A stretch of DNA of 6,806 bases from Methanobrevibacter sp. (lineage in GTDB: Archaea > Methanobacteriota > Methanobacteria > Methanobacteriales > Methanobacteriaceae), in contig JAGCLR010000319.1 of the NCBI GenBank assembly GCA_017646885.1, forward strand, positions 1-6,806. The letters run 5' to 3'. The position numbers and the translations under genes are program-made. The notes beneath the pieces were generated by a model, which saw nothing but the letters and a program-made list of their open reading frames with translations, made no database searches and had not been told where the DNA came from. Within the stretch, counting starts at the first letter, position 1. Every line of letters begins with the position of its first letter. Positions 3,711-6,806 of the stretch are shown here, one piece after another.

Positions 3711-3896
3711 GTGAGCGATGATCAAGATTTTGAAAACAAAGTCAAGTTAGTGATTAATGGAAATGATATTGAATTGAATAAATTCACTGATGACATCATC
3801 AAGGAAACAATTCTTGGATTATTGAAAGCTATTAAAACTTCTGAATATGGTGTAGATGAAGTTAAAAATGTAGAAATTTCCATTGATAATGAATAG
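3711..3896 (+). CDS. Small protein: stand-alone copy of the MobB C-terminal domain
   Basis: 61 residues, GTG start. The start is set by AGGTGA at 3701-3706, 4 nt upstream; there is no in-frame ATG nearby. The protein is acidic, with no Cys, signal peptide or membrane segment, so probably cytoplasmic. Residues 11-60 align without gaps to residues 183-232 of MobB 70 nt upstream. Shared positions include the pattern V-L-I-G--I-LN-F--D--K-TILG-L, EYGV, and a final I-I--N strand. This is direct evidence that it is a real gene and a paralogue arisen by duplication or domain release. I do not recognise a function. Given its place between mobB and moaA it may be a regulatory or assembly partner in Mo/W cofactor synthesis, perhaps forming hetero-oligomers with the same domain in MobB; that is inference. 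It may be co-transcribed with mobB, although the gap is AT-rich enough to hold its own promoter. Confidence 0.85.
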   Translation: MSDDQDFENKVKLVINGNDIELNKFTDDIIKETILGLLKAIKTSEYGVDEVKNVEISIDNE

Positions 3897-3965: not shown

Positions 3966-4898
3966 ATGAAAGATAAAATACGGGATGATTATGAGAGACC
4001 AATTATTTCACTTAGGATCTCCATCACCAATCGTTGCAATGTTGACTGCATTTATTGTCACCACGATGGGATGTTGGATTCCTCATCTGAAATGACTCCA
4101 GATGAAATTTATGAAATCTGCAGAATTGCAAAGAAATTAGGTGTTGAGAAAATACGTTTGTCTGGTGGCGAACCTTTAATTAGGCCAGACATAGTTGAAA
4201 TTGTGGAGAAGATAAATTCACTTGATTTCAAAGACATTTCAATCACTACCAATGGTATAAATTTGGACAAATTTGCCCAACCATTATATGATGCAGGATT
4301 GGACAGAGTTAATGTCAGTTTAGACACACTTAATGAAGAAACCTATAAAATAATTGTAGGGAAAAACGTTTTAAGCAGGGTCAAGGATGGAATTATTGAA
4401 TCTTGTGCAGTTGGTCTATATCCAGTCAAGATAAATATGGTAGTTATGAATGATATTAACCATAATGAGATTATGGACATGTTTGAATTTACAAAAAAAC
4501 ATGGTGTCATACTACAGCTTATTGAAATCATTGAGTCTGAAAGTTGTGATGATAATGACTTCAACTCCAAGTATCATTACCCACTTGCAGAATTTGAAAA
4601 GCACTTGGCTGAAATTGCAGATGAGATCAAGGTAAGGGAATTCATGCAGGACCGTAAGAAATATTTCATTGATGGTGGCGAGATTGAAGTGGTCCACCCT
4701 GTCGACAATACCAATTTCTGCAAGAATTGCACAAGACTAAGAATCACTCCTGAAGGAAAGATCAAACCTTGTCTTCTTAGAAATGACAATCTTGTAGACT
4801 TGGTGGAGTTCATTAGGGAAGGTGTCTCTGATGATGAACTTGTAGACATATTCCTAAAGGGAATCCATAATAGGGAACCTTATTATAAGGAAGAATAA
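3966..4898 (+). CDS. moaA: GTP 3',8-cyclase MoaA (radical SAM, molybdopterin biosynthesis)
   Basis: 310 residues, a normal length for the family. Known for the family: it carries out the first committed step of pyranopterin cofactor synthesis, turning GTP into 3',8-cyclo-dihydro-GTP by radical SAM chemistry. The radical SAM cluster motif is C24-x3-C28-x2-C31, followed by the SAM-binding GGEP at 67-70, SITTNG at 92-97 and NVSLDTL at 116-122. The second, substrate-binding cluster is formed by C252, C255 and C269 in the typical [20 protein letters not shown] stretch. The C-terminal double glycine of bacterial MoaA is absent; the protein ends in acidic residues. The ATG at 3962 stops after four codons, so 3966 is the start. 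It lies between the Fdh and Fwd genes, whose products both need the final cofactor. Codon use is ordinary, like mobB. Confidence 0.94.
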
Positions 4899-4946
4899 TA
4901 GCATATTTTTTGCTATTTTTTTATAATTTTTTTAATATTTTTCTCA
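4897..4946 (+). terminator. Hairpin and oligo-T terminator after moaA
   Basis: AATAGCA (4897-4903, overlapping the stop codon) pairs perfectly over 7 bp with TGCTATT (4911-4917) around a 7-nt T-rich loop. It is followed by a long series of T runs to about 4946. This is the clearest terminator in the window and separates moaA from the fwd unit. Confidence 0.65.
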
Positions 4947-5058
4947 CTATTTTTTCTATTTTTTATATTCATTTTCATTAATTTTTTTATATATTTTTAG
5001 TTTGTTTTTTAGTAATTTTTTCCATTTTTTCATTAGCTTTTTCCTTCAAAAATCCCTA

Positions 5059-5075
5059 TGTGTAGTTACTACACT
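5059..5075. promoter_or_regulatory. Operator-like palindrome, copy 1
   Basis: TGTGTA-GTTAC-TACACT matches TGTGTA-N5-TACACA at 11 of 12 arm positions. Its inner part GTGTAGT-T-ACTACAC is a perfect 15-bp palindrome. The centre lies 24 bp from that of copy 2, about two helical turns, so both sites would face roughly the same side of the DNA. Confidence 0.6.
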
Positions 5076-5082
5076 ACCTTTA

Positions 5083-5099
5083 TGTGTATTTAGTACACA
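5083..5099. promoter_or_regulatory. Operator-like palindrome, copy 2
   Basis: TGTGTA-TTTAG-TACACA is a perfect match, extended by A at 5082 and T at 5100 to 19 bp. It lies about 45 bp before the TATA-like box at 5145-5152. Confidence 0.6.
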
Positions 5100-5114
5100 T
5101 TTTTTTGTTTGACC

Positions 5115-5141
5115 TAAAAATTTTAAAAATTTTAAAAAATT
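5115..5141. repeat. Three 9-bp A-tract units
   Basis: TAAAAATTT occurs at 5115-5123 and 5124-5132, then TAAAAAATT at 5133-5141. Regularly spaced AnTn tracts can bend DNA, although a 9-bp period is a little shorter than one helical turn. It sits between the paired palindromes and a TATA-like box. Confidence 0.5.
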
Positions 5142-5144
5142 CGA

Positions 5145-5152
5145 TATAAATA
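5145..5152 (+). promoter_or_regulatory. TATA-like box, candidate distal promoter
   Basis: TATAAATA follows the A-tract repeat. A start about 25 nt downstream would give a leader of nearly 300 nt before the HTH-ferredoxin gene, or a separate short RNA. Another TATA-like box, TTTATATA, is at 5284-5291. Such boxes are frequent by chance in this DNA. Confidence 0.25.
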
Positions 5153-5219
5153 AACTTACATATTGGAGATATAATTTAGCTATTTTATGTTAAATTTTGA
5201 TAATTTTTATTTTATTTAA

Positions 5220-5344
5220 ATTAGTTTAAATTTAATAATTCAATTCAAAAATAATTATTTTAGTAAAAAAATAGATATTTATCTTTATATATTAGTTTAA
5301 ATAATTAAATATTTGTAATTTTTAAAACTAATTGTTTTAGTAAA
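5220..5344. repeat. Degenerate tandem duplication of about 71-77 bp
   Basis: ATTAGTTTAAAT at 5220-5231 recurs at 5291-5302. TAATTATTTTAGTAAA at 5252-5267 recurs with one change at 5329-5344. The two pairs keep their order and nearly their spacing (71 and 77 bp), which suggests an old duplication inside the leader rather than independent chance matches. The low complexity of the sequence limits confidence. Confidence 0.35.
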
Positions 5345-5363
5345 TTATCAATATTTTTATAAA

Positions 5364-5380
5364 TGTGTAAATAATACACA
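5364..5380. promoter_or_regulatory. Operator-like palindrome, copy 3, next to the proximal promoter
   Basis: TGTGTA-AATAA-TACACA is a perfect match to the pattern. It ends 3 bp before the TATA-like box at 5384-5392, where it would cover the BRE position; a protein bound here could block or assist TBP/TFB. A lone half-site TACACA follows at 5453-5458, just before the ribosome-binding site. Confidence 0.6.
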
Positions 5381-5383
5381 GTG

Positions 5384-5392
5384 ATATATAAG
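5384..5392 (+). promoter_or_regulatory. TATA-like box, candidate proximal promoter of the fwd unit
   Basis: ATATATAAG would place the start near 5411, giving a leader of about 58 nt. A second option is the ATATATAATATATATT stretch around 5431-5446, which would make the mRNA nearly leaderless. The neighbouring palindrome copy 3 favours the first. Confidence 0.4.
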
Positions 5393-5413
5393 TCTTCCGA
5401 CTTGAGTCTAAGT
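5390..5413 (+). promoter_or_regulatory. Short hairpin / dyad cluster in the leader
   Basis: AAGTC (5390-5394) pairs with GACTT (5399-5403) around TTCC, and the same GACT can instead pair with AGTC at 5405-5408; ACTT/AAGT arms extend this to 5413. It is a rare GC-containing island in the region and could be a second protein site or an initiator element. It does not match a riboswitch class known to me. Confidence 0.3.
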
Positions 5414-5459
5414 ATGTACCTTTTATAAGTATATATAATATATATTATAATGTACACAT

Positions 5460-5464
5460 GGTGA
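5460..5464 (+). promoter_or_regulatory. Ribosome-binding site of the HTH-ferredoxin gene
   Basis: GGTGA lies 4 nt before the ATG at 5469 and decides that start. The ATG at 5458 overlapping it opens a frame that stops after eight codons and is not used. Confidence 0.6.
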
Positions 5465-5468
5465 ATTT

Positions 5469-5927
5469 ATGCCAAAACATATAGTATCTGGACTAAAATA
5501 TTTAGAAAGTGTTGAGTTGAGAAAAAGAGGTTTGTCCCAAAAGGAGATTTCATCTCAAATTGGTGTTGACAGATCAACTATTTCTCACTACTTAAATGGT
5601 AGAAACATATCAATGGATTCTATCGAACTTGCTAAAACTATTTTAGAGTTAAGTCCTAAGGATTTTATATTAATAACAAAAGTTTTATTTGGAGATTATA
5701 AAGAAATTCGTCAAATCGTGACTATTTTTAATATGAATCATTATGACCCACAGATAAATGACGGATGTATTGGTTGTGGATTGTGTATAGATTTGTGTGT
5801 AGTGAAATCTATTAGTTTAGATTCACTTAAAGCAAAGATAAACCCCCGTTATTGTTGTGGCTGTCTTATGTGTGTTGAGAACTGCCCAACAAACTCAATT
5901 GAAATTTTGGAGGTAAAAAATGGTTAA
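5469..5927 (+). CDS. fwdH: Helix-turn-helix / 2[4Fe-4S] ferredoxin fusion protein, first gene of fwd unit (FwdH-like)
   Basis: 152 residues. Residues about 8-50 form a helix-turn-helix: the [11 protein letters not shown] helix-turn at 22-32 and recognition helix [10 protein letters not shown] at 33-42, as in Xre/sigma-like HTH domains. A helical linker follows (51-95), then a two-cluster ferredoxin: C100, C103, C106, C110 and C129, C132, C135, C139. The first motif ends in CV where most ferredoxins have CP, and C130 is an extra Cys. It is cytoplasmic, without a signal peptide. It overlaps fwdF by 8 nt. By position it corresponds to fwdH of the fwdHFGDACB operon described in Methanothermobacter; I assign that symbol from memory of gene order, not from alignment. 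A DNA-binding, redox- or metal-sensing regulator of this operon is the simplest reading, supported by the repeated palindromes upstream; an electron-carrying subunit is the alternative. It has no CTC among 16 Leu codons, unlike fwdF, suggesting low translation. Confidence 0.8.
5909..5914 (+). promoter_or_regulatory. Ribosome-binding site of fwdF inside the upstream gene
   Basis: GGAGGT, the strongest Shine-Dalgarno-like sequence in the window, lies 5 nt before the fwdF ATG and within the last codons of the HTH-ferredoxin gene. It allows fwdF to be translated at a higher rate than the gene before it. Confidence 0.75.
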
Positions 5928-6806
5928 CGTTAAAGAAATTGAAGGCAAAGACTTCAATATAAAAAGATCAGCAGAAGAAGACAGAATTTTGTCTTTCAAA
6001 GATCACGTTTGTATTGGTTGCGGCCTTTGTGAAGCAACTTGTCCTGTAGAAGCTATTTGTCTCGATGAAGTAGCTCCTATTGAACGTAAATACACAGAAA
6101 CCTATTTCAGTGGTCATGAAAAGATTGCACAAAATTACGCTCTTTTCAAAAACGACAATGAAGTTAAAGCAAAATTATGCATTGCTGAAGACAAATGTGT
6201 TCTCTGTGGTATGTGTAGTGGAGTATGTCCAGCAGGTGCATTAGACCTCACTATTGGTGGCGTCTCTATTAAAGAAAATGAAGCTTACCCAACTCTCATC
6301 GCATCAGCAGAAATCGATGAAGATAAATGTTTATTCTGTAAAAAATGTGAAGCAGCATGTCCTAGAGCTTCCATTACTATTGACAGAACTTTACCTAACA
6401 GAGCTGACTTAGTCACTGGTGAAATCGAAGTATGTGAAGATGAATGTATTTACTGTGGCGCTTGTGCTGAATTATGTCCAGCAGAAGCTATTGTAGTAGA
6501 CAAAACCACCGGTGAAGAAAGCATTGTTATTGACAAAGAAAAATGTGTATACTGTCTCGTATGTAAAAAAGCATGTCCTGTTAACGCTATTAAAGCAGTA
6601 TGTAGATCCTGTTCCTACGGTGAATATGACCTTGACCCTGCTAAAGCAGCTATTACCGGAAATGCAATTATTGATAAACAAACCTGTATTAAATGTGGAT
6701 GGTGTGAAGGAGTCTGTCCTGCAGACGCAGCAACTGTAAAACAAGCATTTAAAGGTACTCTCGAAATCGATGAAGAAAAATGTGGTACCTGTGGTGCATG
6801 TATTGA
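5920..6806 (+). CDS. fwdF: Formylmethanofuran dehydrogenase polyferredoxin subunit FwdF, 3' end outside window
   Basis: Open to the window edge: 295 codons plus 2 nt, so the C-terminus is missing. The start ATG overlaps the end of the HTH-ferredoxin gene and has GGAGGT 5 nt upstream. Seven CxxCxxC(xxxC) motifs are visible, beginning at C31, C93, C137, C176, C209, C256 and C288 (the last cut before its fourth Cys); the first six end in CP. Extra Cys are C47, C87, C172, C228 and C231. Known for the family: FwdF carries eight [4Fe-4S] clusters and wires electrons into the Fwd/Fmd complex, which reduces CO2 to formylmethanofuran. The missing part should hold the eighth motif. F420-reducing hydrogenase-type or Mvh polyferredoxins are the alternative, but an insert of about 50 residues between motifs 1 and 2 and the context favour FwdF. 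Codon use is biased (TAC 6 of 8 Tyr; CTC 6 of 16 Leu), like fdhAB. fwdG and other fwd genes are expected next. Confidence 0.88.

Follow-up and report, generated by a model that had tools for sequence, protein, structure and literature searches.

Conserved TGTGTA-N5-TACACA palindromes upstream of fwdH suggest an iron-sulfur autoregulator of the tungsten formylmethanofuran dehydrogenase operon in the Methanobacteriales

The window, which is the entire 6,806 nucleotide stretch of Methanobrevibacter sp. DNA analysed here, carries in order the end of fdhA, fdhB, mobB, a 61 amino acid piece, moaA, a 570 bp gap containing a set of palindromes, a HTH-ferredoxin gene and fwdF. The 61 amino acid reading frame (3711-3896), located between mobB and moaA, resembles the C-terminal part of MobB/FeS proteins and is possibly a paralogous fragment. 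The HTH-ferredoxin gene (5469..5927, + strand) encodes a proposed regulator, in which a HTH_3 domain (residues 17-54; 36.6 bits against a curated Pfam cut-off of 23) precedes a 2[4Fe-4S] ferredoxin (residues 98-145), whose domains were also found. It overlaps by 8 bp with the polyferredoxin gene fwdF (5920..6806, + strand), which is cut by the window end, and this partial copy matches NF042909 with an E-value of 3e-104 and 348.8 bits, the cut-off for the whole protein being 375. The accessible text of PMC3087415 gives the operon order fwdHFGDACB and enters FwdH as a subunit of the tungsten formylmethanofuran dehydrogenase. As the gene order in genome G148, where the ortholog is followed by frames resembling F, G, D, A, C and B (by inspection of size and sequence start), matches the order in that text, the window protein is taken as a FwdH ortholog and its gene, by its position in the operon, corresponds to fwdH. 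The full fwdHFGDACB order was seen by inspection in locus L175, and the FwdH ortholog in a Methanothermobacter-type fwd operon shares 53 % identity with the window protein. Among the Methanobrevibacter-type loci listed, a different order (B-, A- and C-like genes, by inspection) follows the fwdD-like gene, and fwdF follows fwdH in all 106 loci long enough to show the next gene.

Matches to FwdH were found in 171 loci, which represent 112 distinct orthologous genes once loci with an identical gene are collapsed (including L219, the second copy of G056, with the same gene as L200). The HTH motif RSTxSHY is present in all 112 ortholog rows, and two CxxCxxCxxxC motifs with their final CP are kept in 110, with CQ replacing CP in the orthologs of L225 and L229. 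The AlphaFold2 model of FwdH (mean pLDDT 91.7; only 70 and 68 in two of the five models) is helical throughout its N-terminal half and resembles a ferredoxin in its C-terminal part. A sequence search of the PDB found no chain matching the whole of FwdH, the matches covering the ferredoxin part or, in one instance, the HTH part, while a fold search of the PDB returned nothing below an E-value of 0.001, the best matches being ferredoxin-bearing proteins. Fwd entries exist in the PDB, yet FwdH is without a full-length relative there, and its absence from the crystals would be compatible with weak binding to the enzyme.

The preliminary description of this DNA placed three copies of the palindrome TGTGTA-N5-TACACA and one half-site ahead of fwdH, and all of its coordinates proved correct. 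The copies, for which no strand is assigned, comprise operator C1 (TGTGTAGTTACTACACT; 5059..5075, -410 from the fwdH ATG), which has a single mismatch in its last base, and the exact operators C2 (5083..5099; -386) and B (5364..5380; -105), and the start-to-start steps between them are the 24 and 281 bp originally given. Operator C1 forms a perfect dyad one base inward from either end (GTGTAG-TTA-CTACAC) and occupies the same place across the window's clade, in which C2 is also kept. The window was said to hold no other full copy, and further copies with up to one mismatch indeed number zero. None of 200 dinucleotide-preserving shuffles reaches the three matches found at this threshold (mean 0.03). 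With up to three mismatches there are seven window matches, a number not above chance (shuffle mean 4.83; 46/200 shuffles reach seven), so that the case for the motif in the window rests on the near-exact copies. The TATA-like box described next to the third copy was also confirmed as a TATA box (TATATAAG; 5385..5392, + strand), which lies 4 bp after operator B. The half-site TACACA by the start codon was also correctly positioned (5453-5458). TACACA occurs twelve times in the window, and a half-site alone therefore means little; it is better read as the remnant of operator A (5442..5458, no strand assigned; -27), a full site which many relatives keep at this place and which is decayed in the window. 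A ribosome-binding site GGTGA (5460..5464, + strand) comes next, with GGTGA or GGTGG found in nearly all orthologs displayed. Further upstream, a putative distal TATA-like element (TTCGATATAAAT; 5140..5151, + strand) is largely conserved in an alignment of eleven clade sequences. The block ACATATTGGAGATATAATT (5158..5176, + strand), which starts 6 bp after this element and is nearly invariant among the eleven clade sequences, the window included, is followed by poorly conserved AT-rich DNA, and is perhaps the start region of a distal promoter.

On the 112 oriented loci, most copies of the motif occupy one of three positions, counted from the start codon. For the site counts 105 of these loci were kept, seven with less than 440 bp upstream being dropped, among them L250, which lacks the fwdH start and was left out of the position counts. 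Site A lies at about -27 to -31 (up to two mismatches at -32..-26 in 68/105 loci), site B at about -104 to -109 (up to two mismatches at -110..-103 in 85/105 loci) and site C mostly at -350 to -365 (up to two mismatches in 74/105 loci), with two copies in tandem, at about -386 and -410, in the clade of the window. The window thus represents a variant with a decayed site A and a doubled site C. Some loci carry an additional copy near -544, and L161 has three tandem C-type sites in 23 bp steps (-408, -385, -362). Every one of the 55 loci having both sites keeps A and B 77, 78 or 79 bp apart, a result first obtained with sites chosen inside position windows and unchanged when any position in -200..-17 was allowed. 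Looping with a fixed helical phase is not supported, given a C-B spacing that varies between 244 and 306 bp.

The motif recurs upstream of orthologous operons, as the preliminary description would require, with an exact copy in 59 and a copy with at most one mismatch in 70 of the 80 non-redundant loci (window -440..-17). In the same loci, 59 other palindromes with the same arm letters attain at most zero exact matches and 4/80 loci at up to one mismatch. When spacers of 0-12 were tried, only a spacer of five yielded exact matches; at up to one mismatch a spacer of three occurs in 14/80 loci, and spacers of seven and twelve in two loci each. In sites A and B the arms are conserved and the centres vary, the right arm of B often being weak, while the centre of site C is mostly GTTAC. 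The Methanothermobacter-like site A, TGTGTG-N5-CACACA at -27, has changes in both arms which keep the symmetry, and degenerate copies with three mismatches each are found at -106 and -27 in G151, which harbours the most divergent ortholog. Several features of this distribution count against the proposed regulatory role of FwdH. No copy with up to one mismatch is found in the -440..-17 region of 10/80 non-redundant loci, the intact member among A, B and C differs by clade, and L005 has displaced copies only, with one or two mismatches. In L192 and 25 related loci an imperfect inverted repeat, TAATACTTT...TATTAC, is present about 60 bp after C and is conserved in many of the 26 aligned sequences.

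The genome-wide rate of the motif was measured in relatives, namely 150 genomes from across the order. Of these, 110 encode FwdH in complete or almost complete form, and one further FwdH was found in the phylum set (G151; 45 % identity). The exact motif occurs in 152 copies in 91/150 genomes, of which 123, spread over 80 genomes, lie within 700 bp upstream of fwdH. The remaining 29 copies compare with 26 for the reversed control pattern across all 150 genomes, and outside fwd the motif is thus present only at control frequency, contrary to the general scatter which the preliminary description had named as refuting its proposal. The 152 exact sites and the 26 control matches were tallied by hand, the former total agreeing with the summed per-genome motif counts; the coordinate of the second G071 site was taken from locus L196, and site distances are approximate for G042 (fwdH split over two contigs) and G081 (match starting at residue 30). 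The 110 FwdH-bearing genomes contain 145 exact copies against 14 control matches, while the 40 genomes without FwdH show no excess (seven copies against twelve control matches). Two of these seven belong to G092, on a short contig with mobB which ends 111 bp past a C-like site, so that fwdH may be missing from its assembly. Many of the genomes appear to be drafts, with numerous contigs, and absence of fwdH can therefore reflect incompleteness. Twenty consecutive genomes (G112-G131) are without FwdH and give no FwdF match at an E-value of 1e-60 or below. FwdF-like polyferredoxin genes, which probably represent a different polyferredoxin, occur in three genomes where FwdH was not found (L282, L283 and L284 in G036, G030 and G110, respectively).

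The co-occurrence of motif and protein bears on whether the operators instead belong to another DNA-binding protein, with FwdH being only an electron-carrying subunit that retains a HTH fold. The entry of FwdH as a subunit in the accessible text of PMC3087415 is in keeping with such an arrangement, the HTH function being inferred; the absence of an exact copy from 59/150 genomes, 25 of them FwdH-bearing, likewise counts against FwdH, and another regulator may have a similar phyletic range. However, the concentration of 145 of the 152 exact sites in FwdH-bearing genomes, the retention of RSTxSHY in every ortholog row and the lack of a full-length PDB match, with the best fold matches being ferredoxin-bearing proteins above the E-value of 0.001, make this explanation improbable. 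Binding of sites A, B and C by FwdH is considered very probable. Also counted in its favour are exact copies 105-157 bp from the divergent mobB start in seven genomes (G050, G063, G081, G082, G088, G092 and G095; loci L191, L192, L226, L231, L250, L264 and L217). MobB serves the synthesis of a pterin cofactor, and Fwd needs a pterin cofactor. In L191 a second copy near mobB, CGTGTAGTAACTACACG, comes after the first, and in L191 and L192 the mobB-side operator stands opposite a small ferredoxin and polyferredoxin pair.

The position of the sites relative to the promoter suggests how such binding might act. TATATA starts exactly four bases past B in 65/104 loci, compared to 1/1470 background windows, and only this fixed-offset count is used as evidence, because a loose TATA regular expression matches 103/104 loci but also 220/1470 background windows. 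The start site derived from the TATA position would place site A about 30 bp further on, within the transcript and close to the GGTGA ribosome-binding site. The fixed step from B to the TATA box would also fit FwdH binding the same sites as an activator, with B at the usual archaeal activator place and C, kept at a distance in 74/105 loci at up to two mismatches, as an enhancer-like module. Activation nevertheless appears less probable, in that site A is situated beyond the expected start, beside the ribosome-binding site, where a bound protein would block, and autoregulated first genes are more often repressors. Repression of fwd by FwdH is moderately favoured over activation, since the core promoter has A on one side and B on the other. 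The location of site A in the leader, its dyad symmetry with paired changes and its proximity to GGTGA could also reflect palindromes that act as RNA hairpins. However, B precedes the TATA box and C is more distant still, so that the proximal transcript does not contain every copy. In addition, the arms lack full self-complementarity in 30 of the 71 site A copies, and Rfam gives no match at an E-value of 1 or below in 4890-5480. A hairpin role is therefore highly improbable, and no known RNA element was found in this region.

A second type of palindrome accompanies site C. The window has a degenerate iron-box-like palindrome (TTTTGTTTGACCTAAA; 5103..5118, no strand assigned), with two mismatches to TTTAGG-N4-CCTAAA, which taken alone is not above chance (13/200 shuffles have two or more). 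Among the 77 loci with C, such a box with up to two mismatches starts within 14 bp of the C end in 61, against 5/1404 background windows and 0/77 loci for the reversed pattern, and it has zero mismatches in 21. The shorter TTAGG-N4-CCTAA exceeds its control in eighteen of the twenty genomes tried and falls below it in G002 and G008. In a hand-picked selection of loci, this box precedes feoA-feoB (L306, L308 and L313) and a FeoB-like gene (L307), and in L305 it lies where a DtxR-family gene begins, which includes a FeoA domain and is followed by a FeoB-like gene. These genes were assigned by eye, except for FeoA and FeoB of L306 and the DtxR-type protein of L305, for which Pfam provided confirmation. 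The box is common to iron-uptake genes and a DtxR-family gene in these selected loci, as in a DtxR iron regulon, and other picked loci point elsewhere or nowhere, for example to fdhD (L293) or a VWA-like gene (L311). The box beside C is most likely that of a DtxR-family iron regulator, judging from the shared TTAGG-N4-CCTAA pattern upstream of feoAB and at the DtxR-family gene. Unlike in those loci, the fwd box adjoins operator C and is separated from the proximal promoter by about 250-300 bp. In L293 (1501-1556) two TTAGG-N4-CCTAA boxes, at 1501 and 1543, stand just before the fdhD-type gene.

Taken together, FwdH is proposed, with a probability of roughly 0.6, to regulate its own operon as an XRE-type iron-sulfur protein, probably by repression and with an iron input at C. 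The palindromes would be the operators of FwdH, encoded by the first gene of the tungsten formylmethanofuran dehydrogenase (fwd) operon, and a FwdH dimer would read the two 6-base arms. Site B would touch the BRE/TATA region and site A would lie early in the transcribed leader, beside the ribosome-binding site. With both occupied, the core promoter would be bracketed, and autorepression would most likely result. The distal site C, beside the DtxR-type iron box, would probably form a second module, at which FwdH comes together with iron status; the adjoining box suggests a link of fwd control to iron, and the chances of an iron input at this site appear even. The ferredoxin part of FwdH suggests cluster state or ferredoxin redox state as the signal, and its two [4Fe-4S] clusters would report Fe-S supply or the ferredoxin redox state, a sensory role which is given a slight preference. 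In this manner the synthesis of a very Fe-S-rich, ferredoxin-fed enzyme might be matched to Fe-S/redox supply. A more specific version, in which the FwdH clusters exchange electrons with the reduced ferredoxin pool feeding the enzyme and the redox or cluster state of FwdH sets transcription of fwd, the CO2-fixing entry to methanogenesis, with a DtxR-type iron repressor docked beside it at C, is put forward tentatively as the less probable form. The constitutive formation of the Methanothermobacter tungsten enzyme, reported in the accessible text of PMC3087415, speaks against the proposed regulation, and on the same ground a strong tungstate or molybdate response is disfavoured. Autoregulation of the fwd operon by the HTH protein, the natural hypothesis of the preliminary description, nonetheless has strong comparative support in the conservation of the operators upstream of fwdH orthologs and their control-level frequency elsewhere.

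HTH proteins that control their own genes through dyad operators are well known, and as in XRE/HTH_3 autoregulators, dyad operators are present in the gene's own promoter and are conserved with the gene. Like the Cro/C1 (XRE) autorepressors, FwdH combines an HTH_3 domain with short dyad operators in the promoter of its gene, but differs in having a 2[4Fe-4S] ferredoxin as effector part and an archaeal TATA promoter. IscR-type Fe-S feedback regulators likewise bind a cluster, in their case [2Fe-2S], and their gene heads an operon that deals with clusters; given the unrelated folds and the 2[4Fe-4S] of FwdH, the resemblance would be one of analogy only. The FwdH of the Methanothermobacter fwdHFGDACB operon has the same first position, but is filed as an enzyme subunit, whereas the window FwdH is here read as a putative DNA-binding regulator. 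Tfx, according to the accessible text of PMC3087415, is a DNA-binding protein tied to fmdECB, which encodes the molybdenum isoenzyme, and so resembles FwdH in its link to a formylmethanofuran dehydrogenase operon, although the operon differs. FwdH was not identified as Tfx, with HTH_3 and ferredoxin rather than a Tfx domain among its Pfam matches. Among the open-licence literature matches listed, no title or abstract presents FwdH as regulatory or deals with the TGTGTA-N5-TACACA motif, and the fusion of an XRE-type regulator with a 2[4Fe-4S] ferredoxin at the head of the fwd operon appears to be new as far as the literature searched shows. The Methanobacteriales are major methane producers of the animal gut, and little is known about the control of their first CO2-reduction step. 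The proposed pair of regulator and operator would have almost a single target, its conservation reaches from Methanobrevibacter as far as Methanothermobacter-like genomes, and it is directly testable. If correct, a gene listed as an enzyme subunit would be reassigned to a regulator, and the arrangement suggests that electron or Fe-S supply, together with iron, is read at the fwd promoter.

Some exact copies lie away from fwd and mobB. A recurrent Methanothermobacter-like copy (G144, G148 and G149) is located inside what by eye is a methyltransferase-like reading frame and was set aside as coding, and the stray sites in L188 and L189 have no common target. In nine genomes (L185-L187, L258-L263) the sequence TGTGTAAGTTATACACA, or one variant of it, is located about 35 bp upstream of a VWA-domain gene, next to a small winged-helix-like gene. 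The VWA-like gene in L311, which is similar to that behind TGTGTAAGTTATACACA, has an iron-type box upstream.
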